Below, one piece after another: positions 13,733-52,403 of a stretch of 64,000 nucleotides of DNA (the first letter of the stretch is position 1; each line of letters begins with the position of its first letter). Both the position numbers and the translations under genes were made by a program. The notes under the pieces are model-generated. The model saw only the letters and a list, made by a program, of their open reading frames with translations. It had not been told where the DNA came from and searched no databases. Source of the stretch: an uncultured Saprospiraceae bacterium (GTDB lineage: Bacteria; Bacteroidota; Bacteroidia; Chitinophagales; Saprospiraceae); contig CAJQRD010000001.1 in assembly GCA_905480605.1 (NCBI GenBank), forward strand, positions 62,001 to 126,000, written 5' to 3'.

Positions 13733-16700
13733 TTATTTTATAATAATCATCTTTTTCGTAGCAGACATAGATCCTGCTTCCAACTTATAATAAAGAACTC
13801 CAGTAATATTCAGGTCTTTTGATGAAAGATCGATGCTATTAAAGCCTTTGTCGTATTCGTTGGTACTTGAAAACAATATTCTTCCCGTTACATCTAATAC
13901 AGTTAAAGTTGCATCAGAAGATTCTGGAAGGACAAAGCTTATGTTAGTGGACTCATTAAATGGGTTAGGATTGTTTTGATTCAATGTAAATGTTCGTTCA
14001 GAATTATTACGGCCGAATAGTTCAATAGGGGTAGTTTCAAAATCCTTTCCTAAATATGCTTCAGATTGGGTAACCTTAGACGATAACTTTACGTTTTGAC
14101 TTAACTTCCCAGATCCTTTAGCTCTAAAACTAATCGTAAACAATTCGAATTCATTTACCATTTCAGCAGCGTTCCACGAAAATGTGATAATACCATTATT
14201 TAATGATGCAAAGTTTTCTTTTGAAACATTTAATCCTTCTTCTTTGATTGAGATAAGTTCAAGATTTGATGTTTCTAATGTAAATTGAAGGCCAGAGAGA
14301 TTTGTGATTTCGTCTAGATTGAGTGCCATTTTAACTGTTTCTCCTTTTTCAAAGTTTACATCATTATAACTTAAGACCAATGATTTCGAAGTCCGAGATT
14401 CGATATCATTATTGTCTTGAGCATTTAAGATTACATTGTTGTTAACGTCTCCAATTTTAACACCAACGAAATCCTCTTGCATCATATTATTTCCTAAGTT
14501 GTCGATCGTTCTGATCTCCGTTATTGGCCAAGGATTATTTTGGTCAAGAATATCGGATTCATCTAAAAATCTCCAACTTTTGTTATTTGGAAAATCTGTG
14601 TGTATTCCTAAGATTAATTTTCTCAATTCAAGTAAGTCAATTGCTGTTATAGTTTCGTCATTATTTATATCAGCAGCAACTAATTTGAAAGGAGAATCTA
14701 ATTCCTTTAATCCTAAGATATGTCTTTGCATCAAAACAAGATCCAAAGTACTAACCCCATTCAAGTGGTCAACATCTTTACTAGGTTCTAATGCATAATC
14801 CATTCCCATCGTATTTTGAGTAAACATGAAATGTCCACTGTTATCAGTTTGGTTCGTAAGAGGATATTCTTCCTGAGCACTTGTGAGTTGAATGTCTACC
14901 TCTTCCAACGTTTCTCCCATCTCAGTCATAATTTGACCTCCAATTTGAGCACTAGGGCTATTACCAATATCCTCGCATGAATCGTTATTATCAACCAAAG
15001 TCAAAAATACCGTACAGAAATCATAGTTATCTTTTTCATCCCAAACATATACATCCAATGTTACTGGAGCACCTCCAGCATCTATTAAATCATCACATGT
15101 AAAAATCTTTGAAGAACAGTGTGTCAATGGATTGTATGAAGGATCATCTTGTGGTCTCACACTTCCAAATGTAAATCTTATATTATCGTTGTCAGAGCAA
15201 TTGTCAAAAGCTCCTAAATCAAAATCACAAGCCCATAATTCAACTTGTCCACTTTGCATGAGTGCAGTACTCAAATTAACACAGTAAGGTGTAGGGGGAA
15301 TGTTATCTACAACCATGAAGCTACTTTGACACGAAGCATAATTGCCACATCCGTCAGAAACTCTCCACGTTACTATATGACTGGTCATACTACCAGCAAT
15401 TTCTTCAGGCAATGTAATTTGTACTTCTTGACCCGATTGGGTCGGTGAAATGTACAATCCACTGAGCTGAGGAGCAGTGCTTGATAACGTATAGTCGTTT
15501 GTATTGTCACCATTTAGGTCAACTTGTACCGTCCATGATAATTTATCACTAGAACAAAGTCCCAGATCTTCTGCTGTATTTGTTAAGGTTACAGTGCTCA
15601 TACATTGTGCACCAGCATCTATTGTTTGATCCACACATCCCGAGAATGTAGGAGCCGTATCATCTAAAATCTTAACTACCTGTACTTGTGACCATATTCC
15701 AGGACTATTTGCAAGACTTGGATTGTAAGTACACCAGTTAATAACTGTCCAATAATTCAAAACCTTAAAACATGCACCGTCAGCAAAATAGAATGTATCT
15801 CTATCTACACTGTAAGCCATCATATCACAAGGTGCAGAATTCCATGTAGGAGTCTCAATTAATACATCTTGACATGTGATTATTGTGTCTCTTGGGAATG
15901 TTACCACTACCGGTCCACCAGCAATTGTTCCACTTACCGTTATTTTTTGTATGCAACTTATGTGAGGGTAGCCTGTAGCAGTCCAAGTTCTAAATATATA
16001 ACCTTGATTACAGCTAGATAAGTGTGTTTCATCTTCATACTCTACACCTGCATATCCACAAGCAGCATCAGCTGTTGCAATTCCTGTAATTGTCAAATCC
16101 TCAGAATCACTCATACAGTCAATAACTACATCAGGTGGACACCAAATTATAGGAGTTGATTTATCTTCTACTCTTACATAAGACCAAACTTCACTATAGT
16201 TATCACCTGCAGTACCAAATTCACCATCAGCATCACCATCATCCCATACTCTCAACCAAACTTTGATTTGAGCATAGTCATTGATACCATCACCGTTTTC
16301 ATCGATACCATATTCAGCAATATCTTGACAACAGAAAGTTACAAATCTACCGTCATCGTAATCAGATGTATCATCAAAGGAGTGGAAGTCATTGTTATAG
16401 GTTACAGATGCAGAATCCCCACACATTTGTGTTTCTCTTCTAATCTCTAATTTTACAGGACCACATCCATCAAATGAACCATTGTCAACACTTTCGGCCC
16501 ACATTTTTGAATAACCTTGCTCTACTGTATTTCCAGGATTCGCTACCAATGTAAGAACGATGTCTTGTTTTGTAATAGCAACTGGAGGAGTATTATCTGC
16601 AACTGTTACCACAATACCATCTGAAGTTGTGTTGTCACAGCAATCATATGCATTGTAATAAAAAGTATGCTCTCCTACTGGAACATCATTGGCAAAATAT

Positions 16701-17983
16701 CCAATATTTGGATCATAACCAATTGCAAAGTCACTTGAAGTCCCCGAACCTGTAACTGTATACGAAACAAACTGAGCACAGTTGTCACTTATCGTAACTG
16801 GATCTGGGAAAATGATTCTTGCACTACACTTCCAAGGATCAACAGAAGCACCAAAACTTATTGCATCAATTGATGGTGCAGTTGTATCAGACGCTTTCAA
16901 AACTTGTGAAAATTTAATTGGTTCCAAATTAGGATCACACCAATCATAAATTGTCCACGTTCTGATAATTTTTGCATTTCCAGAACATCCTGGTTCAGAA
17001 CTACAAATTGGAATTACTGTATCCGAATAAGATGTAACGGTATTACAAATGTTACCATCTAATTTAACACCATTGATTGAAGGATAAGAGAACATCAATG
17101 CATATTGATGCACAGCGGCTTCATAATAAGCCACGAAGTCTTCATCATAATTTGGACTTAATGGATTACAAAGAGAACCATCAGTACCACCACAAGGGTA
17201 ATCTGCTCTGTATTCTGCTGCAAAAAATGTGTAAACACTTTCAGGAGTAGTTCCCGTACCACAATCCAAATCAACATGTTGATTTGGTGGAGTGATAGCT
17301 GACGTCAATGCCAACGGATCGATACGATACTCACTTTGACATGTAACATAATTACCATCAGTGTCAGTTAATCGCCAAGTTCTCGTTACAATTGACGTTG
17401 CACAATCAACACCATCAATGTCATCAGTAAATGTAACAGTAAAATTGTTGTTACAATTATCAATAGCTTGTGGTTGTTCAACCATTAGGCCACCAATGTC
17501 ACCTAGGTCTTCACATAAAATCGGAAGCACACAATCTGGATCAGTGTTGCCTACTTCACATGGGCATGACAAAATACTAGGAGGCAACTTGTCCTCAACT
17601 AGAATATGTCCCCAACAACTGTTAAAAGGCGGATTCATAGCAGCTGGGCCAGTACCATTCTCGACCACTGTAACTGTGTATAATCCGGTTTCTAATAATA
17701 ACATATCACTTACAGGACCGTTAGGGCCTTCTAGTAAAATGTCATAGTTAAGCGGTGAAAAGTCTGGAATCGTAGATTCTCCCTCCAGAATCATCTCTAC
17801 CGTTACTAAACCCTCGCAATTACCATTCAATGCTAAATTAATCTGGTCATCACATACAAGGGTCGCAGGAAATGCCTCTCCACTAGAATATAGGGATGGC
17901 AAAAAACTAAATGTAAGTAAAGTACAACACAGCAGCCAATTAGACAGCAGTTTGCCTTTACCCATTAAATCAGTCCACGACAT
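13733..17983 (-). CDS. Giant paralogue A: multidomain surface protein with dockerin-like and cohesin-like modules, T9SS type A sorting domain
   Basis: The 1416-residue protein has a signal peptide (about 1-38), then a module (VCDDQINLALNGNCEGLV...SCWGHILVEDKLPP) shared by all four giant proteins of this window. HYR/Ig-like repeats with many paired Cys and motifs like IIRTWTIYDWC fill the middle. A short CarboxypepD-like strand region leads into a dockerin-like module (about 1071-1138): a degenerate first loop (NGVSTLDLVLMQRHILGL) and a complete second calcium loop (DINNDETITAID). The conserved DFVGVKIGDVNN, a cohesin-like module (about 1211-1314) and a type A sorting domain (1331-1416, NQNNPNPFNESTNISF...KKMIIIK) follow. 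Predicted to be T9SS-exported. Monocistronic, with its own promoter and terminator. Binding target unknown. Confidence 0.85.
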   Translation of the reverse strand: MSWTDLMGKGKLLSNWLLCCTLLTFSFLPSLYSSGEAFPATLVCDDQINLALNGNCEGLVTVEMILEGESTIPDFSPLNYDILLEGPNGPVSDMLLLETGLYTVTVVENGTGPAAMNPPFNSCWGHILVEDKLPPSILSCPCEVGNTDPDCVLPILCEDLGDIGGLMVEQPQAIDNCNNNFTVTFTDDIDGVDCATSIVTRTWRLTDTDGNYVTCQSEYRIDPLALTSAITPPNQHVDLDCGTGTTPESVYTFFAAEYRADYPCGGTDGSLCNPLSPNYDEDFVAYYEAAVHQYALMFSYPSINGVKLDGNICNTVTSYSDTVIPICSSEPGCSGNAKIIRTWTIYDWCDPNLEPIKFSQVLKASDTTAPSIDAISFGASVDPWKCSARIIFPDPVTISDNCAQFVSYTVTGSGTSSDFAIGYDPNIGYFANDVPVGEHTFYYNAYDCCDNTTSDGIVVTVADNTPPVAITKQDIVLTLVANPGNTVEQGYSKMWAESVDNGSFDGCGPVKLEIRRETQMCGDSASVTYNNDFHSFDDTSDYDDGRFVTFCCQDIAEYGIDENGDGINDYAQIKVWLRVWDDGDADGEFGTAGDNYSEVWSYVRVEDKSTPIIWCPPDVVIDCMSDSEDLTITGIATADAACGYAGVEYEDETHLSSCNQGYIFRTWTATGYPHISCIQKITVSGTIAGGPVVVTFPRDTIITCQDVLIETPTWNSAPCDMMAYSVDRDTFYFADGACFKVLNYWTVINWCTYNPSLANSPGIWSQVQVVKILDDTAPTFSGCVDQTIDAGAQCMSTVTLTNTAEDLGLCSSDKLSWTVQVDLNGDNTNDYTLSSTAPQLSGLYISPTQSGQEVQITLPEEIAGSMTSHIVTWRVSDGCGNYASCQSSFMVVDNIPPTPYCVNLSTALMQSGQVELWACDFDLGAFDNCSDNDNIRFTFGSVRPQDDPSYNPLTHCSSKIFTCDDLIDAGGAPVTLDVYVWDEKDNYDFCTVFLTLVDNNDSCEDIGNSPSAQIGGQIMTEMGETLEEVDIQLTSAQEEYPLTNQTDNSGHFMFTQNTMGMDYALEPSKDVDHLNGVSTLDLVLMQRHILGLKELDSPFKLVAADINNDETITAIDLLELRKLILGIHTDFPNNKSWRFLDESDILDQNNPWPITEIRTIDNLGNNMMQEDFVGVKIGDVNNNVILNAQDNNDIESRTSKSLVLSYNDVNFEKGETVKMALNLDEITNLSGLQFTLETSNLELISIKEEGLNVSKENFASLNNGIITFSWNAAEMVNEFELFTISFRAKGSGKLSQNVKLSSKVTQSEAYLGKDFETTPIELFGRNNSERTFTLNQNNPNPFNESTNISFVLPESSDATLTVLDVTGRILFSSTNEYDKGFNSIDLSSKDLNITGVLYYKLEAGSMSATKKMIIIK

Positions 17984-18085: not shown

Positions 18086-18089
18086 GACA

Positions 18090-25373: not shown

Positions 25374-28300
25374 TTATCTAATAGCTACCATTTTTACAGT
25401 AGCGATATTGTTATTTGTTTTTAATGTCAGGTAGTAAACTCCACCATGACCTAATTCTTCAGCACTAAGTGAAATGCTATTCATTCCTTTGTTGAATGTT
25501 CCAAATATTCTTTTCACTTGCCTTCCTTGAATATCAGTTACCGAAATTTCAACATAGTCCTGGTTTGCAAGTACAAAATTGACTTTTGTTTCATCTGTAA
25601 ATGGATTCGGAGTATTCTGATACAATTCAAAAGTTTGAGCCAATTGATCATTTCCAAAGTCAAGCTTTGGTGTACTTACTTGACCACCATCTTTGTATAG
25701 TTCCGATTTTACAACATCATTTGATATTGACAATACTTCACTTATTTTACCGCTTTCAATAGCAAATGCATTAATAACAAAGTTTTGAGTCTGTTCAGTT
25801 GATGAATTGTTCCAACTCATAGCTACAGCATTATCTAGCAATCTGTAATTAGATTTAGAAAATGCATTATTTGTACCCTCGATTGATTCTACAATCAATT
25901 TAGAATTATCATAATTCATCGTCAACTGGAATCCTTCAACATTTGCGTTGTTGATTATAACTGGAATTTGAACCGATTCTCCAACTTCAAATGATTTGTC
26001 TTCAATTTCTAAAGAAGTTACATCAATGCTTCTGCTCTCAACTCCATTTCCATTTAAAGAAGCCGTCGCTGTACCATTTACATCCCCTATCTTTACCGCT
26101 ATGAAATCTACTTCCATGTCTGACTCAAGATTAGAAATATAGTAGTCCTCAGTGAATTTTTCAGACAATGGATCTGTAGGATCTACAAACTTAAACTCAC
26201 TGTCAACAAATCTCCATGAATCATTGTTTGGAAAGTTATTATAAACTCCTAAGATTAATTTTCTCAATTCTAGTAAATCTATCGAAGTCAATTTATTGTC
26301 TCTATTGATATCCGAAGCAATTATCTTGTATGGACTGTCAAATCTTTGCATTCCTAAAACATGTCTCTGAATTTCTACCAAATCTAAAGTAGACACCCCG
26401 TTCAAAGGATTCTGACTACTTGCAGGATTAATTAAATAATCACCACCCATTGGCATATCTGGAAAAGCATATTCGCCATCCTGATTTGTCATTTCCGCAA
26501 GTGGGCTTCCTTCAAGTGTAATATGAACATCACCAATATTTTCTAATGTTTCAGTAAATACAGATCCACCAACATTAACTGTTTCTTCTCTCTGACCCTG
26601 ACAAGCATTATTATTATCTTGAACATTCACCAAAGATGTACAGTAAGATTGATTAAGCGTACCGTTATATCCTACAACTGATGCCCAAATTTCAACCATT
26701 GTATCTCCTCGAGAAGTACAATCAAACTGAATTAATCTGTCTGAAGGATCGTCTGAAAAAGACAAGATAACATCATCTCCACAGGGGTGTGAACTTCCAG
26801 CATTAAAATCAGAAGCCCAAAGTTCAACCATACCAAAATCAGGTGTGCCATCATTGTCAAAATCCATTGGCATTAAATCAACTGCAATTCCATTTATACA
26901 ATAAGCCGTTGGAGCTTTACAGTTGTATATTGTAAATGTTTGATTCCTGGAAGTTGCATTTCCACATCTATCATAGAATGTCCAAACAACTACGTGTGTA
27001 CCTATTGGGAAGTCACCACTAAATCCAGTTTCTCCTCCATTTCCTGAGTCTTCTGTAACAGGGTTTGTAAATGTATTTGGCCCTACACCTAACTCACCAG
27101 CATATACAGAATACTTCCATCTCATATCTTCAAGAGCAGTACATGTTGAAGATCCACTTGCCGTTAATTCTATAAAACCATCCTGACATTCAGAATCATA
27201 AGTACACATTTCAATTGAATCCCCAACTACTAATTCAGGGGCAACATCATATGTGACTTTTAGAACTTGTACACAAGATGAAATAGGTAGTGATGATTGA
27301 CACCAGTCAATTACTTCCCAATGTCTTAGCACTTTAAAACAAGCATCCCCATTTGTTCCGTTGAATGTAAATACTTCATCATCATAATTAGAGGCTATCA
27401 TTCCACATCTCGTATTGTCAAATTCAGGATAGCCCACTTCTTCAGGACTCAAATCTGCCATCAACATACAACCAATCATAATGGTATCTCTTGGACATAC
27501 AAAATTTGTACTAACATTAACCACGTCTGGGTTTTCAAATGTAATTATTTGCTTACAAGTCGAAGTTCTTCCCCCGCTATCTGTTGCTGTAAATACTCTC
27601 GTATATGTTCCTAAATTACATGACGTAATTTCATTTATACCTTCTTCAGTTACATCAGCTCCACAATCATCTAAGACTGTTGGAAATCCAAATTGAGGCG
27701 TTAAGTTACTTGCATTAAATGCAGCATCACAATCGACTACTTCATTAGGAGGACATAACAATGTAGGTGCTAGTTTATCTTGAACGTCAACACTTACCAT
27801 ACACTCATTGTAGTTACCAAATATATCAACAACTCTAAATATAACCATTTGCTCTGTTCCTACATCAGCGCAACAGAAATTCACAGCCTGACTGAATCCA
27901 CATATATCTTTGATCTCCAATATATAAGGAACCTCTGTCAAACAATCTGCATCATTCCATTCATTGTATGGAGCTGGCGTCATCATAACGCAATCTCCAG
28001 CACATTGACCACTAGATACTTCAAACGATGCATCAACATTATCATAGTGTGAATCACAATTATCTGTTGCAAAGTCCCCAATTATTACATCTGAAGCAAA
28101 AGCATTATCTTCAATAGCAACTCTAAAATAATGAGTACCACATGGTGAGTTCGCTGGCAAATTAAATCTAAACGAACTTGATTGAGTTATATCCAATAAT
28201 GGCTCAATTGTATTCGAAGTATTAGACCCTGTATACCTCTCAGAATATAGTGCCTCCCAAACAGAACCATTATAGTATAAAAGCTTAAAGTTAATTCCAT

Positions 28301-37400: not shown

Positions 37401-38618
37401 GTTGAAAGTAAAATCACCTGGACAAGTCAATACTGGTGGCTCAACATCCTCAACTGTTACTTTAACTTCACAGTCGATAGGGAAAGAAGCACCAGAACCA
37501 GAACCAGTACCAGTAATATTAACACAAGTCGTACCTAGTGGGTAAGTGGCAGGACCATTTGCTAAACCAGTAAATGAGTTTAAGAAGTCAACACAAGCAG
37601 TAGCAACACTAACTGAACCAGTAACTGAACTAACTGCACAGAAGTTATCTACATCAGCATCAGCCAACAAAGTAAACCCTAAAACGCCATCAGCAGCCCA
37701 ACCATTATAGTCAGCTACAGGAACGCAAACTGTTATAACTATAGCACCAGCTCCATTACAGTCACCAACACCACCTGGGTTAATCACTTGACCAATAGTA
37801 TTGCCATTTTCATCAGCAATAAAAGGTTGCTCTGTGAAAAATGAGAAATCACCTCGCATGTCAAAGTCGATACATACTTCAGTCACACAGTCAGCCGAAG
37901 CTGGAACTTGAACGACACCAGCAATTTCAAAAGGTGTATCAATAAGACCTAAATTGTTAAAATTAAATGGAGTTTCAGCCCCAACAACGGTAACAAAATC
38001 TCCAGGAGAAGGAAGAATTATACAATCCATAGCACCAGAACCAGTACCAGTAGATCCATCAACAGATGGGTTAGGAATAGTAAATACAGCTTCACATACG
38101 CCTGGATCAGTACCTACAGTTTCGTCACATGGACAAACTATTGTACAATCTCCGCCGCCACCAGTAACAATACTAGCTACAACTTGTCCGCTTGGTGTTC
38201 CAGAACCACAAGCATAAGCTCCATTACCAGATGCCCCTCCATCTCCGCTGTAAAATACAACTTCAATAGGGTCTTGACCTGGACAGTTAGGAGGTAATTC
38301 CGTAGACAATGTAATCATTGCTGGAGGACACCATCCGTCTCCAAAAGTTTCAAAAGTGTGCAATTCAATGGTATTAGCATCATTTACACAAGCCGTGGTT
38401 GTTCCACCGGCTGGGTTTTGGCCACCACAAAGAACTTCTGCATCTGCAGTAGCATCCCATAGTACCCATGAGTTTTCACCATTGAAACCACCAGCTACAT
38501 AAGTAACCTCTAGTAGAGTTTCACCAGTTGCACATTGACTAGAAGCCGTTTGTACAACCACAGTCATCATAAGAAGACATGGTATTAGTTTAGTAAATAA
38601 ATTAAAAATCTTTTTCAT
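31431..38618 (-). CDS. Giant paralogue C: 2395-residue surface protein with P-domain, dockerin-like and cohesin-like modules, T9SS type A sorting domain
   Basis: The largest gene of the window. A signal peptide (1-~27) is followed by a ~650-residue region absent from A, B and D, with Gly/Ser-rich GTGSGAM and GTGSGSG linkers. Then comes the shared module (SLACNDLVNVSLNEDC...SCWGEMVIEDKLPP). A proprotein-convertase P-domain-like segment lies at about 789-934 (INLEHTWVGDIELELIAPSG, LSGTWMLRWDDTVGGDQGEF). HYR/Ig-like repeats with VIRTWTALDWC follow. The end has a dockerin-like module (about 2050-2115, with complete loop DVNNDGAVTAID), a cohesin-like module (about 2186-2286) and a type A sorting domain (about 2310-2395, NQNEPNPFSANTVIGF...KKMIIIE). 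A 159-residue secreted protein gene lies 62 bases upstream on the same strand, probably co-transcribed. Confidence 0.86.
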   Translation of the reverse strand: MKKIFNLFTKLIPCLLMMTVVVQTASSQCATGETLLEVTYVAGGFNGENSWVLWDATADAEVLCGGQNPAGGTTTACVNDANTIELHTFETFGDGWCPPAMITLSTELPPNCPGQDPIEVVFYSGDGGASGNGAYACGSGTPSGQVVASIVTGGGGDCTIVCPCDETVGTDPGVCEAVFTIPNPSVDGSTGTGSGAMDCIILPSPGDFVTVVGAETPFNFNNLGLIDTPFEIAGVVQVPASADCVTEVCIDFDMRGDFSFFTEQPFIADENGNTIGQVINPGGVGDCNGAGAIVITVCVPVADYNGWAADGVLGFTLLADADVDNFCAVSSVTGSVSVATACVDFLNSFTGLANGPATYPLGTTCVNITGTGSGSGASFPIDCEVKVTVEDVEPPVLTCPGDFTFNLQGGECEQIYDYEVLVSDNCPVGEQEITGTFGSIGNCPGQGATLSCGGFQTSQVQEFDISGFPTGADVQINEGCFIFDNTAWGQTMATVNFYEAPAGATAAHTAMPCILTATPVATSGLVDVTVFATNPGEEACIPVFDMNGDPYLVTDASPGLYMEVLTVGGAISWNGPACNGITSTGGNTYLCSVQCGSGYFNDFGFTIDAFFSFTGEVVAPPAPMLPGLNEFASGEALPIGVHCFDFSAIDFAGNITSCDWCITVNEFPSDQVVTSLACNDLVNVSLNEDCEAFISADMFLEGGPYGCYFNGYEVYIEGVNNGADVNGQSLALDPGTYTVTVNDVIRDNSCWGEMVIEDKLPPVFAVEDLTVTCKQDIPNFIEVATDVNGIIALPIEGEAITSAEPEQFLSFEVDAPECLVEDINVAINLEHTWVGDIELELIAPSGASVDLVDNQCGINDDMNVVFDDEGAAWSCAAAVPGTGASLQLPMGQLADLNGEELSGTWMLRWDDTVGGDQGEFISASVIFNNGQIVCGNNVTADDYLSANGSPCNIVDLVVVQEESIGNDCDGGTVLRTWVATDAAGNTSSQVQTITRERIGVEALGTEWFWPANIVTMTCGAETTPDAIYAYFRAQWEAVNPCPLPTCDATDGHNYDPVFVANWECNANAAGVRNAYPLCFNDKGLQQEFEGQACNVFFTYDDQVLPACGDNCNGNSKVIRTWTALDWCTGETANGVQVIHAKDTEGPTASPLAPMTVSANPWGCAANFRLPVPDHLYDNCSSDVTYRIYGQPGTVTEIVAGPKVMLDSDDNPVLDANGFPIWIVEGLPKAMDSYTYTYELSDCCGNVSYVELVVTVVDGSAPVAIAKQNIVISLTSSPTDPSGGSAKLYVTSVDNGSHDGDCGPVRVAIRRTDADDDPEDNIGFCGNLGDDHNNNSSFFNFNDLANSSQPAGHDRDDTDEGAFVKFCCQDLIDGTGGDTDGDGINDYVLIEVELGVWDDANMDGIPGTPGDQFGITWATVRVEAKLAPSLACPPLVKITCEMDEKDLAVTGGSAHASSTCGNLDVTYTDLCGLDINQDGVIASFTVTNPNGMLINEVGMCTDVDGNGRLENYTAAWWSEVDEDLFNKACHYGPITRWWSIAGTEVSCRQLIIIERPASVQQFDGSVSIDWPYSEDEFIRLADNDGDDCGLMEVSGSDIEQIDTNDDDIPDYAEVRLSCIDGLCDEPVWVDANCSLVGWSMESDTFFFEGDACRKIINTYTVIDWCQYEPNNPSTGGIWTWTVIGKLIDTYAPVVVAQDSMFEAVPGSGGSGTTVDNSSCVGVGIQMSATGNDTNVDSDGNIIDNACPSQWLKWNVYVDINNDWTFDREWSSFVAEDRNTSTDPLWSEDNAADNLNVYGYLIPDVRVGNRGGVDNNEGDFATAPGFEYTINIPDQIPADCGETTHRVVWKIYDGCGNVSSTTSYFTVQDKKAPTPYCINLSTALMADPDGAGPETSMVELWAIDFDRGSFDNCTEADDLCFTFSDVAPENDPTYNAALRSSARIFNCDDLAAASNSVLPIGVYVWDKCGNYDFCQVNLRLVDNFNGCQDTIGSGSMIAGNFATEFGELIENVEVSNMEMINENEASYMANAGEYVFNNNVTNLDYAVTASKDGDYLNGISTLDLVLIQRHILGLANLDSPYKLIAADVNNDGAVTAIDLIELRKLILGINSEFSNNSSWRFADASQTLDINNPWNFDETIDIYNLTTDMMDENFIGIKIGDVNQSVVANLTSGTTEDRSSATINIDFEDMQVEAGQTVDLTVSGDNFNNVFGYQFTLNAQGLELVSVQAGAVNVTEDNFGVVGNSVTTSWNSNEALNATGDLFTMTFKANTTGKLSDIINLNSDVTTAEAYVGSNLDIVNIVLNNARDADATFALNQNEPNPFSANTVIGFDMPQSADATLTITDVTGKVVKTITGNYAAGSNRIELSKSDFGVAGVYYYRLDSGDFTATKKMIIIE

Positions 38619-39470: not shown

Positions 39471-40427
39471 TTATTTATTCATTATTTTATCTTCTGTTAC
39501 TTTCTGCATTCCCACACTTTTTTTATTGCCTCCAATATCAAATCGGACTGCTAATTCGTGTGTTCCGTTGTTATATGTCTGAAACTCAAGGCGACTTGCA
39601 CCATAAGAATACGTAAAGTTCATTGAATTTATGCGTGTACCAATTATAAAGCCTAATGTTTCATCGGCTCCTACAGTATATGTTACACCACCTCTTAACT
39701 TATCATCTAAGAACCTAGCTAAAAGGTTAATATCTGCATGAAAAGGTACGTTCATTAGTTTTTTAACCATTATTGATGGTTCTAAAACCATATTTGCATC
39801 TAAGTTATCTAATTTATACCCTAATGAAAGAATATACCCTATCTCACGTTCAGTTGTGCTATCGCCATCATCTATTCTTGTGCTAACAAGAGAAGGCAAA
39901 GACAAACCGTAAGTTAGTTTACTATTAAAGACACCAAAAACGCCAAAAGAAACATCAAAAAAGTTTGTTCCAACTATATTTTGGTTAATTACTTCGTCTG
40001 GATCTAATGCCGGTCCAGAAAAAACATCAGCTGATAAACCATGTTGTATGTATTCTGCTGACAATCCAAAACCTATTCTATTTGTTGGGGTATCTATAGT
40101 ATAAGAAACCGAGCCCTGAAGCTTTGTTGTTTTTAAATCCCCATTAGAATCAGTCAAAATCAATCCTCCAAACCCTAATCTATCCGCAATTGGGCCATCA
40201 TAACTTATAATTAATGATTTTGGAGTACCTTCAAAAGTAGCCCATGTATTTTTATACGATAAAAACAAGCTATGGTTTAGATCATGCCCGGTTGCACCTG
40301 GGTTTACAAGAACTTGATTCATAAAGGCCATATCAGAAATATATCTTTCATCAAAATATCTGTCATTCTGACCAAATAAACTACTTGCACCAAATACTAT
40401 AAAAAGAAGGATATAAATATTTTTCAT
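39471..40427 (-). CDS. PorP/SprF family type IX secretion-associated outer membrane protein
   Basis: Starting at the ATG at 40427 (318 aa) gives a clean signal peptide (MKNIYILLFIVFGASSLFGQ); thirteen codons upstream are open but unlikely. The mature protein shows the PorP/SprF pattern: MAFMNQVLVNPGATGHDLNH at the start, then barrel strands such as LGFGGLILTDSNGDL and GFGLSAEYIQHGLS. SprF of Flavobacterium is needed for export or surface attachment of SprB, and PorP/SprF proteins typically pair with proteins bearing type B sorting domains. The preceding gene (40473-44108) has exactly such a domain, with 45 bases between them. Confidence 0.88.
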   Translation of the reverse strand: MKNIYILLFIVFGASSLFGQNDRYFDERYISDMAFMNQVLVNPGATGHDLNHSLFLSYKNTWATFEGTPKSLIISYDGPIADRLGFGGLILTDSNGDLKTTKLQGSVSYTIDTPTNRIGFGLSAEYIQHGLSADVFSGPALDPDEVINQNIVGTNFFDVSFGVFGVFNSKLTYGLSLPSLVSTRIDDGDSTTEREIGYILSLGYKLDNLDANMVLEPSIMVKKLMNVPFHADINLLARFLDDKLRGGVTYTVGADETLGFIIGTRINSMNFTYSYGASRLEFQTYNNGTHELAVRFDIGGNKKSVGMQKVTEDKIMNK

Positions 40428-40472
40428 GGCTTGCTTTCTTAATATTAATAATGTAGAATTTATCATTACTTG

Positions 40473-43400
40473 TTAGTCTCTTAATAAAGTTACAGTTCCT
40501 TTATATGTATTTGTGCTTGTTCTCAGAACCCAATAATAAGCGCCTTGTGGCAATTCTATATTATCCATGTCAATTCCATTCCAATTATTGGCATAATTTG
40601 ATGATTCGAAAACAAGTCGACTATATCTATCAAAAATTGCAATTTGAGCATTTTCAGAACAGCCAATTGTTAAAGCTTCATTTGCTCCGTCACCGTTTGG
40701 CGTTATAACACGTCTGCCTTGGAAACACTCAGCTCCAGTACAAGTGGTGAGCAAATCAAATGTGAATTCAGCTTCACAACTATTATCATCTGTTACTGAT
40801 AAGGTATACATTCCAGGACTTAAATCTTCAACTAAGAAAGTTGGGAATGGGTCATTCAATGCATCTGGTGACCAGTTCAATGTATAATTTCCTGCCCCAC
40901 CCGAAACTGCAGCAAGTATAGATCCATTGCTCTGTCCATCATCTGGACACACCAGATCGTTAGGATCTGCTCCAATCGAAATAGCAGGAGGTGCAGTAAT
41001 AACGGTTGAATTTTCAACTGAAAATATTCCACCTGCATTATCAACAAGAGAAATATCGTAACTATCAGCACATAAACCATCTATTGTAAAATCTCCATCG
41101 TTGTTAAAAATAAATTCAGTAGAATTTGCTCCAGAATCTGTCAATGTTATTGTAAATGGTGGAGACGCAGGTGCTGGCGCTTGTATAATTCCGCTAATAA
41201 CACCCATACAATCACCTTCTGCACATGGCGTTGCAAAACCAGAAAAGGGTGTCCTAACAAGATCAACAATTAACCCCAGATCACCCGAAGTAAATATTGT
41301 AATTTCTAAATTGACTGTACATCCATTTGCATCTTGAACAATCACCGTATAAGCTCCTGCATCTTGTAACCCTGATAAATCCTGAGTAGTTGCTATTAAG
41401 TTTCCATTATAAAACCATTGATAAACATATCCACCAGCTCCTCCAGATACGTTAATATCTATAGTAGGCAATTGAGCAGAAGCTACTGTTACCACCAAAC
41501 CATTTGGTGAGGCAACAATGCTAAACGGCTGCGTATCAGAAGACCCAGTTTCAGTGTCTGTAAAAGTTATAGTATGATTACCAATAGGGAAGGTACCTGT
41601 TAATGTTCCGGTATTATTGGTTACTAAGTTACATGCCTGAGGTGCTCCACCATTTATAGAAACTTGACAAGTTGTAGAACCACATCCACCGGTAACAGTA
41701 AATGTTGCTTGTCCATCCATTCCTGAACAAGGTGAAGGATCCACTGTGATATTAGAAATATCAATATCATTTCCAGCAGAGGAAGTTATAACAGCTGTTG
41801 CCTCAACCAAACCACCTGCTGAATCCGTAAATCTAACTGTATATGTACCTGCTTCATATTTATTACTGTCATTGTGAGGCTGGACATTGTTAGAACCATT
41901 AAGCTCTACAGATATCGTAAAAGGAGGACATCCTCCAGAAATCATGGTACTAATCATACCATTTGCTTGATTACAAGTCGCAGGCATTGTACCCGTTACA
42001 CTTGCAACTAGAGGTACAGGAACTGATAATACAGTTCTTGTTTCAGATACAAAGCAAGCAGAATCGTTACTATCTGTACATGTAATAACATAAGTTCCTG
42101 CAGGAGCTGTAGCTTCACCAGAGGCGTCAAATGTCAATTGTGGATTACTCGTAATCTCATAATCACCTGATCCTCCTGTACATGTTACTATAATTCTACC
42201 GTCAGCAATACAACTTGCAGAGAAAATAGTAATGTTAGAAATTGCTATATCACATGGTGGATCACCAATAGTAAAATTTTGTATATCAGTACAACCTCTT
42301 GAATCCGTTGCTGTTACAGTATATGTACCATCTTGCGGATTGTTTGGATCGAAATTAGAATCGCTGTAAGAAATAGTTTCGCCACCATTGCCACCTGAAA
42401 CACTTGTCGTTACTGTAGTTCCAACATTAACTGTTAATATTAGCTCATCAGGTTGTGATATTGTATAAGGTCCACATTCGAATGCATTACCACTATTGTC
42501 AGTAATAAATGCAGTATAAATTCCGGAAGATTGTCCAACTAGTAATGTATTAGATATGACACCATTTTCTGTTGCGCCAGGATCCCAATCCACTGAATAA
42601 GGAGAAGAACCCCCAAATATATTTAAGTTTATAGCGCCATTGCTTTCTCCAAAGCACCTTACGTCAGTAATAGTTTCTACACATCCAGCATTACATGATA
42701 TGGTAACACTGCCATCAACTAAATTCACATCGCTATCAGCCAAAGCTGTAAATGTATTATCGGTTATTTCAATTGGTCTTGATGGTTCTGCAATAAATGC
42801 AATGTCAGAAACAATTGAATCATCTGTCGTATTATCACAATCTGCAACAATATCAAAACATACTGAATAAATAACTGTACCATCAGCTTGAGATAGACCA
42901 GTTCCGTTTGAATGTGTCCAAACATATCTCAGTTTATCATTATCTGCCGCCGCAAAAGAAGAAGCAAATTCACTATCTGTAGTCTCTACTCTATTGTAAG
43001 TCAACACATTAGGATCCCATTGCATAGTGTATTGCATACCAGCAATATCTGTAAAGTTTTGTGTAGAAAAATCAACACAAACCTCTGTATCCATTGAGCT
43101 TACAGTCACATTTTCAGCTTCAATAGAAAATAAATCTCTGGGACCAACTTCTGTACCAATAGTTATTTTACCATCAAATAAGTCTACTTCACGTACTCCA
43201 ACAGGAGAAGGAGACGAAATTTGAATTGGAACAATTCCATCAAACGGCTTTAAAATAGTCATATCCCCATCTGAACCAACTACATCAAAACATATTTCAA
43301 AAGCAGTTCCTCCATCAGCTATATTTGCTGGAGTAGAACCTGTATTGTCAAACCAAAGAAAAGAAATTGTACCATCAGTCGCCATTGAAACATTAAAAGT

Positions 43401-44108
43401 AGCTGCAGAAAGGCCCATAAGTCCGAAGTTTTGTAACCCCGAATAGGAGATTACTGCTGGGTCCCACATAAAACTACCTTGAAAGGTTTCAACATCTGTA
43501 AAGTTGGTTACTGTCAATGGTATACATATAGAAGAACCAGCTTCCACAGTAGAATCACTGAAGATAAGACCAATGTCATTTCCTGAGCTTACACAACCGG
43601 CACCAGGTAACATTACTGGGACAGTGTTTGCACTAGCGCCAATATCACTAAAATTAGAATCAATTACCTCTATAGAAAGATTTTCAGGATTTGTTAATAT
43701 AATCTCTGTCTCATCGCACTCGCTACCGACTTGATTAAACCTCATTGTAAATAAAAGATGGTCATCAGGTAATGATTGTCCTGCACTTGTGAACCATGAG
43801 AGATTTACACGCCCTTTTGTGCCAGTCATCGTTTCACTTGGAAGCGTCAAAGAGGATCTACTAAAGTCCAACAAAGATGTTGAAACATTAAAGAGGCTAT
43901 CAACTTCCAGCACTAGTGAATCCCATGCAACAGCAAATTGTACACTAAAAAGTCCATTAAAATCAGACGCTCTTACATCAATATCGTAAGGTTGCCCAGC
44001 CATTGGTTCTGAATTAGCATCGTATTGCACTTGCAATTGAGATTGAAGAGCAATCCCTTGCAAAAAGAAAAAAGCAAAAAATATGTAGAAACTGTACCTC
44101 TTTATCAT
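40473..44108 (-). CDS. Cohesin-like / SprB-repeat surface protein with type B (CHU_C-like) C-terminal sorting domain
   Basis: The 1211-residue protein has a signal peptide (1-~23) and three consecutive cohesin-like modules (about 25-165, 175-315, 325-470, each with a 'VGxPxxIDVxxxDFxxLxGxQFxxxWD' feel: FNGLFSVQFAVAWD, FTDVETFQGSFMWDP, FTDIAGMQYTMQWDP). SprB-like repeats follow (CFGESNGAINLNIFGGSSPY; CPDDGQSNGSILAAVSGGAG). The last ~85 residues form a gliding-motility-type C-terminal domain (RRVITPNGDGANEALTIG...WNGIDMDNIELPQGAYYW). With its PorP/SprF partner this resembles SprB/SprF-like adhesin export units. No dockerin was seen, so it could be a receptor for the dockerin-like modules of the giant proteins. 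Confidence 0.85.
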   Translation of the reverse strand: MIKRYSFYIFFAFFFLQGIALQSQLQVQYDANSEPMAGQPYDIDVRASDFNGLFSVQFAVAWDSLVLEVDSLFNVSTSLLDFSRSSLTLPSETMTGTKGRVNLSWFTSAGQSLPDDHLLFTMRFNQVGSECDETEIILTNPENLSIEVIDSNFSDIGASANTVPVMLPGAGCVSSGNDIGLIFSDSTVEAGSSICIPLTVTNFTDVETFQGSFMWDPAVISYSGLQNFGLMGLSAATFNVSMATDGTISFLWFDNTGSTPANIADGGTAFEICFDVVGSDGDMTILKPFDGIVPIQISSPSPVGVREVDLFDGKITIGTEVGPRDLFSIEAENVTVSSMDTEVCVDFSTQNFTDIAGMQYTMQWDPNVLTYNRVETTDSEFASSFAAADNDKLRYVWTHSNGTGLSQADGTVIYSVCFDIVADCDNTTDDSIVSDIAFIAEPSRPIEITDNTFTALADSDVNLVDGSVTISCNAGCVETITDVRCFGESNGAINLNIFGGSSPYSVDWDPGATENGVISNTLLVGQSSGIYTAFITDNSGNAFECGPYTISQPDELILTVNVGTTVTTSVSGGNGGETISYSDSNFDPNNPQDGTYTVTATDSRGCTDIQNFTIGDPPCDIAISNITIFSASCIADGRIIVTCTGGSGDYEITSNPQLTFDASGEATAPAGTYVITCTDSNDSACFVSETRTVLSVPVPLVASVTGTMPATCNQANGMISTMISGGCPPFTISVELNGSNNVQPHNDSNKYEAGTYTVRFTDSAGGLVEATAVITSSAGNDIDISNITVDPSPCSGMDGQATFTVTGGCGSTTCQVSINGGAPQACNLVTNNTGTLTGTFPIGNHTITFTDTETGSSDTQPFSIVASPNGLVVTVASAQLPTIDINVSGGAGGYVYQWFYNGNLIATTQDLSGLQDAGAYTVIVQDANGCTVNLEITIFTSGDLGLIVDLVRTPFSGFATPCAEGDCMGVISGIIQAPAPASPPFTITLTDSGANSTEFIFNNDGDFTIDGLCADSYDISLVDNAGGIFSVENSTVITAPPAISIGADPNDLVCPDDGQSNGSILAAVSGGAGNYTLNWSPDALNDPFPTFLVEDLSPGMYTLSVTDDNSCEAEFTFDLLTTCTGAECFQGRRVITPNGDGANEALTIGCSENAQIAIFDRYSRLVFESSNYANNWNGIDMDNIELPQGAYYWVLRTSTNTYKGTVTLLRD

Positions 44109-48029: not shown

Positions 48030-51000
48030 TTATTTTATTAAAATCATCTTTTTCGTAGAAGAAAAATATTCAGAGTTTAATTGATAATAATAGATTCCGT
48101 TTCCATTAAGATCATTGGCATTTACCATGACTCTATTGATTCCTTTATCGTAAGTGTTTCTATATACTTTAACTACTTTTCCACTTGGGTCATAAATGGT
48201 TACGCTTGCATCAGATTTTTCAACAAACTCAAACTCTATACTTGTGGCACCATTAAATGGATTCGGTGCATTTTGATACAATTTGTTTTCAAGATTCAAA
48301 GCCTTACGATCAAGATCTATATTTAGAACATCAAGATTATCTGTATACATTTCTGAATTGAAAACTTCCTTATTTACTATAAATGCATTGTTTTGAATGT
48401 CAGAACCGGACCTAACTGTCAAGTAAAATAATACCTCACCTTCTTGTGCATTTATGGCTTGCTCACCTACCCAAGATATTTTCAATACACCATCTTCAGT
48501 TAAGTTATATATATCTGAACTGACATCCAAGATACCAGATTCCACATCAACTATTTCAATATCATTATAATACAATGACAACGCCAATTGCATACCTGCT
48601 ATCGATTGGTTATCTTCAAAGTAGAATGGTATTCTATATTCTTTGCTTTGATTTGTGTTTATAACATCATGTGCTAACGTTACATTATCAAAGCTTCTTG
48701 AATTAATATCTGCAGAACTGCTTGACAATACATATGTATTGTTCACATCACCTACTTTTACTCCAATAAAATTGTTATTTACCATATCACTTTCAAGACT
48801 ATTGATTTCGAGCTTTTCTCGGATAGGCCAAGGATTTAGAATATCTACAAAAGTTTGAGATTTATCAATATATTTCCAACTTTCATTTTGGGGAAGTTCA
48901 CTATAAATACCCAGGATAAGTTTTCTCAATTCGATCAAATCAATAGCCGTGACATCCTGACTGTTATTGGCATCGGCAGCCACCATTTGATATGCAGAAT
49001 TTAGCGGCTGTAAGCCTAGTATATGTCTTTGTATTAATACTAAATCAAGAGTTGATACTCCATTTAAATAATCGTCTTTACTTACAATATTTAGTCTGTA
49101 ACTATTAGCCTCCTCTTGGTTTCTAAATACGTAGTCTCCATTAGAATCTGTACTGGAAAATGATCTAGTTTCATCACTCATTTTCAGCAATGATACTTCC
49201 ACATTTTGTAGGATCTCATTAAACTCAGTTTTGACATTTCCTGCTATCATCATTCCTGAAGTATCAGGGCAAATATCATTATTCGCCTGGATAACCATAG
49301 TTGTAACACAGAAGTCTTGATTCCCAGAGTCATCAGTAAACCATATTCTAAATGTTTGCTCTCCTAAATCATCACAAGTAAAACGCATTGAAGTTGCAGA
49401 CAAATCAATTGGATCAAATGATATATCGAGATTTGAATCACAATTATCTTGAGTTCCTAAATCAAAATCGTTCGCCCATATTTCCAAAAATGGTTCATCT
49501 AATACATTCACCGGAGGAGTCAATGCTGTTGAAATACCAGATCGACAATAAGGAACAGGCGATTTGTTGTCCTCAATAGTAACATCGAAACTGCATGTTG
49601 ATAAATTACCACATAATCCTTCGGCTGCCCAAGTAATTGTATAGACTCCAGCTGTTAAAGTTTCATTTGTAATATTGCCATATCCTGATGAAGTAACTAA
49701 CCCATTTAAAGTAATTTCATACGCCACTTCTGACGCTTCAATTTCTTCTTGAAGACACAAATCAAATGCAGTTGGAGCTTCAAAATTGGCTATATATTCG
49801 CAATTATTTGTCACTACTCCAAAGGTTGTATCCTGTTGGCAATTTGTCAACTCAGGACCTTCTATACTTTGAACTTTTATAATTTGATTTCTTGACCAAA
49901 TTCCTTGTCCTGGATTGTTGTTAGAGTCATATAAACAGAAATCAATAACAGTCCATGTTCTGATAACTTTTATACAGTAGCCAGACACATCATCAAAAAT
50001 TCTATCCTTATATGAATAAGATAGCTGTGCACAAATTGGTGCTTCATCTACTGGCACTCCATTGTATAGCACCGCATCATTAAGATCAGTTGCATAATTC
50101 GAACACGATGCATCATCTCTATCAGCAGGCCATGTAAAACTATTGCTGGTAAGCACAGCATCACTTGTAAAGTTGAATGTTTGTTCACAAGATGTCAATT
50201 CTGAAGTTACACCAGGCAGATCAGCAAACCATCGCCTTGTAATAACACCATCACCACAAATATCATTTATACTCCCAGAATCTTCGTATCTCAATTCTAT
50301 ATTACCACATCCTCCTTCAACAATTGGTATTCCAGTAACATCTGTTGAATCAATCATTGCAGCTTCTGTACAATTAAAATTCCAAACCAACTGAGGGCAA
50401 GATTCAATAGCCAAGCCCGTTTTATCTTGAACAAGTACTACTACAGAACACGTATTTGTCAAGCCACTTTCATCCGTAACTCTAAGTGTAACACCCATCG
50501 TTAAACCACCTTCTTGGCAGCAGAAAGAAATGAAATCACTGAATTCCAAATCATTATTACTGTACTCAGGAAGATCAGCACAATACGTTGTATCTTTTTT
50601 CAAGGACAAAGTAACAGGTCCACCACATTCATCATAAGACCCATCATCTATCGCTTCTGGATAAAGTCTACCCCATCCATTATCAGCAATTGATACAGCA
50701 GTGAATTGATCACAAACTATCACAGGAGCTGCATCATCTCTCACAATAATTATGAATGTTTCTTCAGTTTCATTTCCACATTCATCTGTGAAAATATATT
50801 TTATTGTGTTGTTCCCACTTTGCAACTGATCAGCTCTGAAAACATTGTTTCCTCTATTTTCAGCATTTAGGTAATCAGGATCAAAATTTTGAGGATCTGA
50901 TTCCAAACCAGGCAAGTAAATTACATTTATAGTAAGATTACTTAAATCCGAACAATCGGAAAGGTCCTTTACACCAGTTATATGAGAAGTATCAAGTGGC

Positions 51001-52403
51001 ATAAAATCAACAACACCTTTACAATCCCTGTCCGTACTAAACACTAAGCTATCATCTGGCACCATGAACGAAGGAGCAACATTATCTTCAACTTTTATTG
51101 TTTGGTAACTTTGAGCATATTCGGCAGTACACCAATCAAGAACTGTCCAACGTCTTAATATTTTAATTGTGTTGATACCACATAAACTAAAAGTATCATC
51201 AGCAAAGGTCACATTCATTCTGCAAAGGCCTTCGTCTTCAATATATAAACCATCCAATAAAGGTTGTCCTGTATTGGCAGGGCTCAAGTCCAAAAGACCA
51301 TTGGTTAAGATACTTGGATCTGTGCATGAAAAATCCATATTGACAGGAAATTCAACTTCTGACAATTCTTTCTTTTCAAAATAAATTGAGAAGTCACAGA
51401 GGTCAGTACTTAATCCTGCATCATCCCTTGTAAAGTATTCAATATCTCTTTGTGCAGTAATCCCATCTATACATTCAATACTATTTGTTTCATCCCTGTT
51501 GATAATAACTTCAACATTTGGATCACAATTATCACTTTGTTGGAATTTGTAAAAAGAAACTGTATTAAATTCCATGCAGACACCAGCAGCAATAGCCGCT
51601 TGATTTGCGGGTGTATTCTCAATTACTAAAGTTACAGAGGCTCCAAGGTTTGTATTAAGAGCCTGGACCCCTTGAACTTCTCCAGTGTATACATCTGTAT
51701 TTACTGGATCCTCATTAAAAGAATATGTATCACCACTTGTCATTATAATACCTGAACCAGATCCTGTCATTGTTGTTAATGGAACATTAATGTCCACAAA
51801 GTCAATAACTTCCCATTGCTCACAACTTCCAGATCCTGTCAAAGGTGTCATAAGTAAACTGATGGTATTGGGATCCATATCTATATCCGTAGAACCAGAA
51901 CCAGTACAATAGGTTAATGTATTCATAGATGTTAAAATCTGTGAAAGATCCTTAGAACAATCAACTGTAAAGTCGTCAATACAAGTTACAGTTGGAGGCA
52001 ATTTATCTTCAACTGTAAACCATCCCCAACAAGATATTGTTGTTCCGTTATCATCTAGAAAAGATACACTAGCTTTATAGTCAGCGCCCACAAAAGAGCC
52101 ATCTATAACTGGATAATGTATCTCACCACTAATATCAACTGTAGATTCTAAAAGTATAACATCGCTAGCGGATGAGATAGTAACCATGTAATCACAAGCG
52201 TCTCTTTCATCTTCAAGAATCAAGTCGGGATTTAACTCCGCAAAACATTGATAATCAAGTGAAATTTGGATCCTGTCATTACATCCCAAAGATTGAGGAC
52301 ATTGAGCTGATGCATTAAACTGCATCAACAAACAAAACAAAGCCACAGAAAAAATTCTGTAAGCTCCTAAATCTTTTAACCTTGATGAATAATTATTAAC
52401 CAT
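48030..52403 (-). CDS. Giant paralogue D: surface protein with dockerin-like and cohesin-like modules, T9SS type A sorting domain
   Basis: I start at the ATG at 52403 (1457 aa); the open frame reaches a TTG nine codons earlier. A long N-terminus ends in a signal peptide (FSVALFCLLMQFNASAQ). The shared module follows (LGCNDRIQISLDYQCFAELN...SCWGWFTVEDKLPP). HYR/Ig-like Cys-rich repeats with ILRRWTVLDWC occupy the middle. A dockerin-like module (about 1108-1175: NGVSTLDLVLIQRHILGL and loop DANNSQDVTAID), DVNNTY-type linker, cohesin-like module (about 1248-1354) and type A sorting domain (about 1370-1457, NAPNPFNGATSIEF...KKMILIK) close the protein. A response-regulator gene lies 99 bases upstream on the same strand with no terminator between. 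Confidence 0.85.
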   Translation of the reverse strand: MVNNYSSRLKDLGAYRIFSVALFCLLMQFNASAQCPQSLGCNDRIQISLDYQCFAELNPDLILEDERDACDYMVTISSASDVILLESTVDISGEIHYPVIDGSFVGADYKASVSFLDDNGTTISCWGWFTVEDKLPPTVTCIDDFTVDCSKDLSQILTSMNTLTYCTGSGSTDIDMDPNTISLLMTPLTGSGSCEQWEVIDFVDINVPLTTMTGSGSGIIMTSGDTYSFNEDPVNTDVYTGEVQGVQALNTNLGASVTLVIENTPANQAAIAAGVCMEFNTVSFYKFQQSDNCDPNVEVIINRDETNSIECIDGITAQRDIEYFTRDDAGLSTDLCDFSIYFEKKELSEVEFPVNMDFSCTDPSILTNGLLDLSPANTGQPLLDGLYIEDEGLCRMNVTFADDTFSLCGINTIKILRRWTVLDWCTAEYAQSYQTIKVEDNVAPSFMVPDDSLVFSTDRDCKGVVDFMPLDTSHITGVKDLSDCSDLSNLTINVIYLPGLESDPQNFDPDYLNAENRGNNVFRADQLQSGNNTIKYIFTDECGNETEETFIIIVRDDAAPVIVCDQFTAVSIADNGWGRLYPEAIDDGSYDECGGPVTLSLKKDTTYCADLPEYSNNDLEFSDFISFCCQEGGLTMGVTLRVTDESGLTNTCSVVVLVQDKTGLAIESCPQLVWNFNCTEAAMIDSTDVTGIPIVEGGCGNIELRYEDSGSINDICGDGVITRRWFADLPGVTSELTSCEQTFNFTSDAVLTSNSFTWPADRDDASCSNYATDLNDAVLYNGVPVDEAPICAQLSYSYKDRIFDDVSGYCIKVIRTWTVIDFCLYDSNNNPGQGIWSRNQIIKVQSIEGPELTNCQQDTTFGVVTNNCEYIANFEAPTAFDLCLQEEIEASEVAYEITLNGLVTSSGYGNITNETLTAGVYTITWAAEGLCGNLSTCSFDVTIEDNKSPVPYCRSGISTALTPPVNVLDEPFLEIWANDFDLGTQDNCDSNLDISFDPIDLSATSMRFTCDDLGEQTFRIWFTDDSGNQDFCVTTMVIQANNDICPDTSGMMIAGNVKTEFNEILQNVEVSLLKMSDETRSFSSTDSNGDYVFRNQEEANSYRLNIVSKDDYLNGVSTLDLVLIQRHILGLQPLNSAYQMVAADANNSQDVTAIDLIELRKLILGIYSELPQNESWKYIDKSQTFVDILNPWPIREKLEINSLESDMVNNNFIGVKVGDVNNTYVLSSSSADINSRSFDNVTLAHDVINTNQSKEYRIPFYFEDNQSIAGMQLALSLYYNDIEIVDVESGILDVSSDIYNLTEDGVLKISWVGEQAINAQEGEVLFYLTVRSGSDIQNNAFIVNKEVFNSEMYTDNLDVLNIDLDRKALNLENKLYQNAPNPFNGATSIEFEFVEKSDASVTIYDPSGKVVKVYRNTYDKGINRVMVNANDLNGNGIYYYQLNSEYFSSTKKMILIK

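Follow-up and report, generated by a model that had tools for sequence, protein, structure and literature searches.

A shared dockerin–cohesin cassette in four giant proteins of an uncultured Saprospiraceae bacterium and a candidate surface system exported by type IX secretion

Four giant paralogues and their modules

The 64,000-nt stretch of DNA analysed here (the window, in whose positions all coordinates are given) belongs to an uncultured Saprospiraceae bacterium (GCA_905480605.1, contig CAJQRD010000001.1, positions 62,001-126,000 of the forward strand), the genome of which comprises 4.5 Mb in 125 contigs. Its nearest named relatives, at 80% identity for the best, likewise fall in the Saprospiraceae. 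It encodes four giant paralogues, A, B, C and D, sharing a C-terminal cassette composed of an immunoglobulin-like (Ig) domain, a dockerin, closing strands ending in GDVN, a cohesin and a type A tail of the type IX secretion system (T9SS), as well as two proteins with cohesin modules only, R1 and R2. All six open reading frames (ORFs) were found at the positions given by the original prediction, with additional upstream TTG starts for D (52430, versus ATG at 52403) and R1 (6716, versus ATG at 6686).

Modules were scored with Pfam per protein and in a whole-genome search, and a cohesin profile was also built from relatives; the cut-off of Pfam Dockerin_1 (PF00404) is 22.9 bits. The LNG(V/I)STLDLV..QRH.LG helix, the calcium loop, GDVN and the type A tail are common to A-D. 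The SCWG..EDKL stretch occurs once in each, near the N-terminus in A, B and D and around residue 750 in C, and Cys-rich HYR-type repeats exceed a Pfam cut-off in B and D and are weaker in A and C. Modules and their order are as originally proposed, apart from a supposed linker that is part of the dockerin-bearing module (see below). The features of the four proteins are as follows.

13733..17983, minus strand: protein A, 1416 amino acids, HYR-like Cys-rich N-terminal part and C-terminal cassette
14429..14950, minus strand: A, Ig-nested dockerin module, residues 1012-1185, ending just past GDVN (Dockerin_1 28.7 bits; module profile 242 bits)
14009..14389, minus strand: A, cohesin module, residues 1199-1325 (relatives' cohesin profile 122 bits; no Pfam match)
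13736..14008, minus strand: A, type A T9SS tail (Por_Secre_tail 27.8 bits)
25374..30305, minus strand: protein B, 1643 amino acids, C-type lectin and HYR domains and cassette
26064..26576, minus strand: B, Ig-nested dockerin module, residues 1244-1414 (Pfam 23.8 bits; profile 210 bits)
25653..26021, minus strand: B, cohesin module, residues 1429-1551 (Pfam 22.4 bits per protein, 25.3 in the genome search; profile 90 bits)
25380..25652, minus strand: B, type A T9SS tail (Por_Secre_tail 31.3 bits)
31431..38618, minus strand: protein C, 2395 amino acids, P_proprotein domain and cassette
32124..32639, minus strand: C, Ig-nested dockerin module, residues 1994-2165 (Pfam 29.5 bits; AlphaFold2 model)
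32142..32144, minus strand: C, codon of the invariant GDVN Asp, cassette residue 168, protein residue 2159 (100% weighted frequency in 251 sequences)
31710..32090, minus strand: C, cohesin module, residues 2177-2303 (AlphaFold2 pLDDT 96; Pfam 28.8 bits in the genome search)
31437..31700, minus strand: C, type A T9SS tail (Por_Secre_tail 32.8 bits)
48030..52430, minus strand: protein D, 1466 amino acids (from ATG 52403), HYR-like repeats and cassette, first gene of the D-R2-PorP cluster
48729..49253, minus strand: D, Ig-nested dockerin module, residues 1060-1234 (Pfam 19.0 bits per protein, 25.7 in the genome search; profile 225 bits)
48306..48689, minus strand: D, cohesin module, residues 1248-1375 (profile 74 bits; no Pfam match)
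48033..48302, minus strand: D, type A T9SS tail (Por_Secre_tail 34.5 bits)

Protein C additionally harbors a proprotein convertase P-domain (PF01483, 39.5 bits) between its Cys-rich repeats, with no protease domain listed.

The Ig-nested dockerin and the cassette cohesin

Profile searches on all six proteins support both module types originally predicted for A-D. Judged by their sequences, the dockerins are genuine dockerin modules, those of A, B and C scoring above the Dockerin_1 cut-off per protein and that of D in the genome search. The second calcium loop is complete, reading D.N.D in A, B and C and D.N.S in D, which contradicts the earlier description of a loop canonical in C and D.N.D-like in the others. 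In the first loop the acid of position 5 is usually missing, and in B and D this loop is degenerate; 21 of the 23 dockerin matches in the genome start at profile position 8 or later.

The cohesins of A-D appear genuine by sequence, and that of C also by its predicted fold, a type I cohesin (AlphaFold2 predicted local distance difference test, pLDDT, 96). With Pfam Cohesin (PF00963), R1 (26.4 bits) and R2 (50.1 bits, two stretches) pass per protein, B falls just under the cut-off, and C and B pass in the genome search; A and D are recognized by the relatives' profile. Structure comparison matched the C model to the Archaeoglobus fulgidus cohesin 2xdh, with 3kcp among the listed matches; cohesins filled this list, so that the lack of Ig or dockerin folds among the matches listed is not evidence against them.

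Searched against the genome, an alignment of the A-D C-termini without the tail returned 25 matches, 19 of which are full length and keep the same order; conservation of the cassette is therefore far beyond chance. In all 19, 89-98 residues lie between the cassette and the stop codon, and this tail scores above the Por_Secre_tail cut-off in six, just under it (23.8-25.8 bits) in five, and is not listed at E ≤ 1e-4 in eight. SCWG is present in eight of the 19 proteins, and the SCWG part is thus not common to all cassette proteins. The predicted T9SS export is borne out by Por_Secre_tail matches above the cut-off in A-D and R1, which mark type A cargo, by the CHU_C signal of R2, and by SprA, encoded in an open frame of 2545 amino acids in this genome. 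As originally stated, no glycoside hydrolase was found: Pfam listed no such family for any of the 23 dockerin ORFs of the genome (19 at E ≤ 1e-4; some ORFs cut by contig ends), and the dockerin-borne carbohydrate-active enzymes of a cellulosome were not found among them. Several of these dockerin proteins carry HYR, C-type lectin or DUF11 modules. A separate case, on contig C17 (L152, 2145-3188), is a redoxin/AhpC-TSA protein ending in an Ig-dockerin and GDLNGF without a T9SS tail, that is, a dockerin on a thiol-disulphide protein. An apparent cohesin-only match on contig C106, cut by the contig end right at GDVN, was left out of the counts.

Within a sample of 120 Saprospiraceae genomes, 113 had a cassette match, five of them weak (best E above 1e-10); in a Bacteroidota sample, any match was found in 34 of 395 genomes, near full-length ones being mostly from Saprospiraceae. 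In three more distant members (L128, L131 and L133), the match spans the Ig part into the cohesin, and inspection by eye showed that GDVN and a T9SS-like tail are retained. In L129 and L132, from another Bacteroidota family, a cohesin-like stretch apparently precedes the dockerin in the same chain, which ends at GDVDG; by eye, the cohesin-like part seems inserted in the Ig domain ahead of the dockerin, and no such stretch before the dockerin was seen in L135. In one complete genome (G454; L336, 3-5640), the cassette is split over two ORFs within the dockerin module, as a frameshift or a real split.

The DF.VK.GDVN stretch, previously taken for a linker, is the closing part of the Ig domain, with the dockerin nested inside, because three lines of evidence converge: couplings, predicted strands and free dockerins stopping at GDVN. 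In the AlphaFold2 model of the C cassette (314 amino acids, single chain, the only cassette folded), strands 126-130, 146-149 and 161-165, in cassette numbering as used for all residues below, follow the three dockerin helices. Mean-field couplings were calculated on 251 sequences, 66 of 317 matches having been dropped beforehand as gappy or duplicate, and on a second set of 285 sequences. The latter ties the post-dockerin strands to pre-dockerin Ig strands through I16-G163 (rank 6), N46-E159, I4-I149, A9-I162, A53-D148 and A56-I147, and the earlier run on 251 sequences gave the same trend. All ten free dockerins from two genomes end no more than five residues from the end of a GDVN-type motif and keep Trp126, Lys165 and Asp168. 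Pfam CarboxypepD_reg has 82 positions, of which weak, sub-cut-off matches in A, B and D span no more than the initial 47-59, as if the last strands came later in the chain. No solved chain spans the whole Ig-dockerin module by sequence at E ≤ 0.05.

Over the 251 sequences, four columns show a weighted frequency of 100%, namely Asp70 (position 12 of loop 1), Asp94 and Asp105 (positions 1 and 12 of loop 2), and Asp168, the Asp of GDVN. In another set, Asp70 is down to 97% and Asp168 is still found in 100% of 113 cassettes. Asp168 is predicted to complete the first calcium site.

As to the arrangement of the cohesin, the C cassette model has a predicted template modelling score (pTM) of 0.89 over 314 residues. 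By calculation, two perfect bodies misplaced by 15 Å reach at most 0.66, and 0.89 needs a cross-body error of about 4 Å or less; in the model, hence, the position of the cohesin with respect to the Ig-dockerin is defined. A rigid arrangement of the cohesin against its own Ig-dockerin is accordingly favoured by the prediction, and a canonical dockerin-cohesin clasp within the cassette is possible. The cassette cohesin is strongly conserved in the 251 sequences, conserved polar residues lie on cohesin strands and on dockerin helices 1 and 3, and recognition-type positions are much alike among paralogues. The conserved polar cohesin strands are presumably the faces turned toward dockerins in known complexes.

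Cohesin-only proteins and the PorP/SprF cluster

The cohesin-only proteins of the window and the genes grouped with them are the following.

40473..44108, minus strand: R2, 1211 amino acids, cohesin-only, SprB repeats, CHU_C type B tail
43731..44009, minus strand: R2, cohesin-like module 1 (profile 13 bits, weak)
43338..43586, minus strand: R2, cohesin module 2 (best Pfam Cohesin stretch 185-280; 36.7 bits in the genome search; profile 18 bits)
42888..43124, minus strand: R2, cohesin module 3 (profile 24 bits; genome search 24.9 bits)
40488..40709, minus strand: R2, CHU_C type B T9SS signal (62.4 bits)
39471..40466, minus strand: PorP/SprF, probable outer-membrane anchor of R2 (PF11751 154.4 bits; adjoins R2 homologues in 19/20 loci)
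3204..6716, minus strand: R1, 1170 amino acids (from ATG 6686), one cohesin, type A tail (Cohesin 26.4, Por_Secre_tail 37.9 bits)
6309..6554, minus strand: R1, cohesin module (Pfam Cohesin; one match with the relatives' profile)
52503..53171, minus strand: LuxR-type response regulator upstream of D (PF00072 and PF00196; match in 15/24 cluster loci)

R2 thus holds two cohesins by Pfam and three by the family profile, and has the features of SprB-like type B cargo: CHU_C, SprB repeats (52.7 bits) and an adjoining PorP/SprF gene. In G424, a genome of the same genus, as well as in G476 and G499, the genes for D, R2 and PorP/SprF directly follow one another in this order. Neighbours were then inspected in 20 further genomes, selected by rank of R2 score from 57 carrying a match to R2; G456 (match starting at base 114 of the contig) and the three genomes already seen were left out. 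PorP/SprF adjoins the R2 homologue in 19 of them, the twentieth locus ending at a contig end, and a dockerin protein lies directly upstream in 11 and within two genes on either side in 14. Searched without the cassette, the N-terminal part of D is matched in 18 of the 24 cluster loci. This conserved cluster lends support, for R2, to the original proposal that the two cohesin-only proteins could be receptors.

Proximity of cohesin-only to dockerin ORFs was also seen genome-wide. In the complete genome G454, five of seven cohesin-only ORFs have a dockerin no more than 4 kb away (0.27 expected, p 5e-6), or four of six with two neighbours merged (p 3e-5); four other genomes together gave 4/7 (0.31 expected, p 1.3e-4), and G447 gave 3/6 (0.11 expected). 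A broken cassette (G435 C1:212235), a fragment (G424 C19:28849) and a mixed ORF (G424 C26) were left out. Next to PorP/SprF, G454 also encodes a protein of 2406 amino acids that combines nine cohesin stretches recognized by Pfam with SprB repeats and CHU_C, in effect a T9SS scaffoldin. In two loci (L333 and L339) free Ig-dockerins of 190, 239 and 204 amino acids adjoin multi-cohesin proteins.

Within the window, D and R2 are separated by an FG-GAP/ASPIC-UnbV gene on the other strand (44588-47935, plus strand). The same-genus genome G424 has no counterpart there, which suggests that this gene was inserted into the D-R2-PorP cluster.

Proposed surface system, alternatives and known relatives

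We give about an even chance to the reading that these genes encode a surface system of cohesins and dockerins that is non-cellulosomal and exported by the T9SS, with cohesin proteins anchored by SprF holding dockerin-bearing adhesins and the cohesin of each adhesin's own cassette packing in cis. R2 would be held at the outer membrane by SprF; according to the sections considered of one source, a PorP-like partner binds SprB and other type B proteins (PMC9143113), and R2-type proteins are for this reason proposed as SprF-anchored cohesin scaffolds. We infer that cohesins and dockerins of these proteins bind each other, such that the N-terminal cohesins of R2 would take up the dockerins of D-like HYR/lectin adhesins and many adhesins could be displayed on few anchors. 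Judging from the model, the cassette cohesin would pack rigidly on its own Ig-dockerin, as a buttress or clasp, and would have to swing or stay aside upon partner binding. The invariant GDVN Asp may serve as a calcium ligand in the first dockerin loop, which is degenerate. A more specific version is offered tentatively: a Saprospiraceae assembly on a possibly motile outer-membrane anchor, with SprF-bound, SprB-like cohesin filaments carrying interchangeable dockerin adhesins, a structurally new, Ig-nested dockerin whose first calcium site is completed by the GDVN Asp returning behind the Ig-closing strand (a split F-hand), and a cis cohesin that serves as a cap up to the point where a partner replaces it.

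Several observations weigh against the proposed surface system. In six of the 20 R2 loci the two nearest genes on either side encode no dockerin protein, and some of the D N-terminal matches may reflect general HYR similarity. In the genome under study none of three cohesin-only ORFs (a mixed ORF on contig C93 and the C106 fragment left out) lies within 4 kb of a dockerin, R2 being 5.4 kb from that of D, and a plus-strand gene separates D from R2. The null model was random placement, and genes for T9SS cargo may cluster in general, which could account for the proximity. Couplings that would link Asp168 to the calcium site are weak (N64-V173, rank 63; I74-V169, rank 111), and dockerin-cohesin couplings fall below their chance share, with 16 of the top 200 versus 33.9 expected in the 251 sequences; the scattered cis pairs are no evidence either way. 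A stronger constraint on cassette than on free dockerins at positions 75 and 111 was dropped, with p 0.13 and 0.47 within the same two genomes, and the surface difference between both groups is thus not upheld after lineage control.

The intramolecular clasp of the original prediction fared unevenly, its rigid cis placement being favoured by the structure prediction of the C cassette and the covariation expected between dockerin and cohesin being absent. That nothing more than such a clasp exists, with the cassette cohesin bound to its own dockerin as a calcium-stabilised stem before the T9SS tail and nothing bound in trans, appears rather unlikely: order and spacing are fixed in all 19 full cassettes, the pTM demands a small cross-body error, and the cohesin-like part of L129 and L132 stays in the same chain even ahead of the dockerin, yet free Ig-dockerins and multi-cohesin proteins exist, side by side in two loci, and the D-R2-SprF cluster is recurrent. 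The modules may instead be purely structural, Ig-dockerin and cohesin being stable beta/calcium folds reused as stalk pieces of T9SS proteins without mutual recognition. Such reuse would fit the missing dockerin-cohesin coupling, the strong conservation of the cassette cohesin, as expected of a structural part, and the occurrence elsewhere of cohesin domains as adhesion-type modules, for which the sections considered of one source name TMEM132 (PMC6030884). We consider it unlikely in view of the gene-neighbour linkage between cohesin-only and dockerin proteins, the nine-cohesin scaffoldin, and the conserved polar residues on dockerin helices 1 and 3 and on the cohesin strands, if these faces are, as we assume, the recognition faces.

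Head-to-tail polymerisation, the other arrangement originally suggested, in which each copy would use its dockerin to bind the cassette cohesin of the following copy and so build surface chains, seems improbable. Every full copy has both modules, and cross-binding would be allowed because recognition-type positions are much alike in the paralogues; however, a type A signal directly follows the cohesin, by which each chain is probably anchored to the surface on its own, as far as the material considered indicates (PMC9143113), and neither covariation nor any direct evidence speaks for chains.

With type I pairs of the clostridial cellulosome the proteins share the dockerin sequence family and the type I cohesin fold; they differ in T9SS export, in having no glycoside hydrolase family listed on the dockerin proteins of this genome, in the Ig-nested dockerin and in the degenerate first loop. 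XDoc dyads and the CipA C-terminus (3kcp, which we take to be CohI9-X-DocII) resemble them in an Ig-like module packed with a dockerin and in carrying cohesin and dockerin in one chain, whereas here the post-dockerin strands close the Ig domain and the cohesin comes after the dockerin module. Scaffoldins likewise carry cohesin and dockerin in one chain, and Archaeoglobus fulgidus has non-cellulosomal cohesin/dockerin proteins. For anaerobic methanotrophic archaea (ANME), a non-cellulosomal dockerin with up to five cohesins in one chain has been described (PMC9012536). The original statement that cohesin and dockerin sit on different proteins is therefore too strict. The A. fulgidus and ANME systems differ in being archaeal and without T9SS, and the sections of the source considered here mention no SprF-type cluster (PMC9012536). 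For Ca. Stygibacter (Cloacimonadota), a multi-cohesin scaffoldin with a C-terminal surface-attachment domain (T9SS C-terminal domain, CTD) has been proposed; it is alike in the multi-cohesin protein, the conserved attachment domain and the dockerin proteins, and differs in a dockerin cargo of mainly glycoside hydrolases and peptidases, with no dockerin-cohesin (DocCoh) cassette or SprF cluster mentioned in the sections considered (PMC8542988). SprB/SprF of Flavobacterium johnsoniae shares the type B CTD protein and the adjoining PorP-like anchor gene (PMC9143113); R2-type proteins differ in their N-terminal cohesins and in that a dockerin adhesin is often encoded nearby.

Chains with both cohesin and dockerin are thus already known, and a cohesin scaffoldin with a surface-attachment domain has already been proposed. 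What seems to be new is the nesting of a dockerin with an invariant GDVN in an Ig domain, the presence of the DocCoh cassette across the family, and the clustering of D, R2 and SprF. No paper on this system was found among the literature matches listed, earlier notice being possible, and the sole one among them with both 'dockerin' and 'Saprospiraceae' mentions dockerin once. Saprospiraceae are abundant in wastewater plants and their role is little known, as stated in the sections considered of one source (PMC9304909). The proposed surface assembly, which seems unrelated to cellulose, would, if real, provide a testable mechanism for adhesin display by this family, namely a plug-and-socket code coupled to T9SS anchors. 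It would also bring type IX secretion and SprF-type anchors into cohesin-dockerin biology, and protein engineering would gain a new dockerin stabilised by an Ig domain.

Further genes flank the cluster. Upstream of D (52503-56360, minus strand) the LuxR-type regulator is accompanied by a protein of 320 amino acids, presumably resembling an asparaginase-type hydrolase, and a haem peroxidase of animal type, the T9SS tail of which scores just below the cut-off; in the 24 cluster loci the last two have matches in seven and six, respectively. Between C and PorP/SprF lies a protein of 159 amino acids (38681-39160, minus strand) with no Pfam match and, by eye, a signal-like N-terminus; an ORF of 148 amino acids, dissimilar to it by blastp (1e-5), takes the same place in L378.

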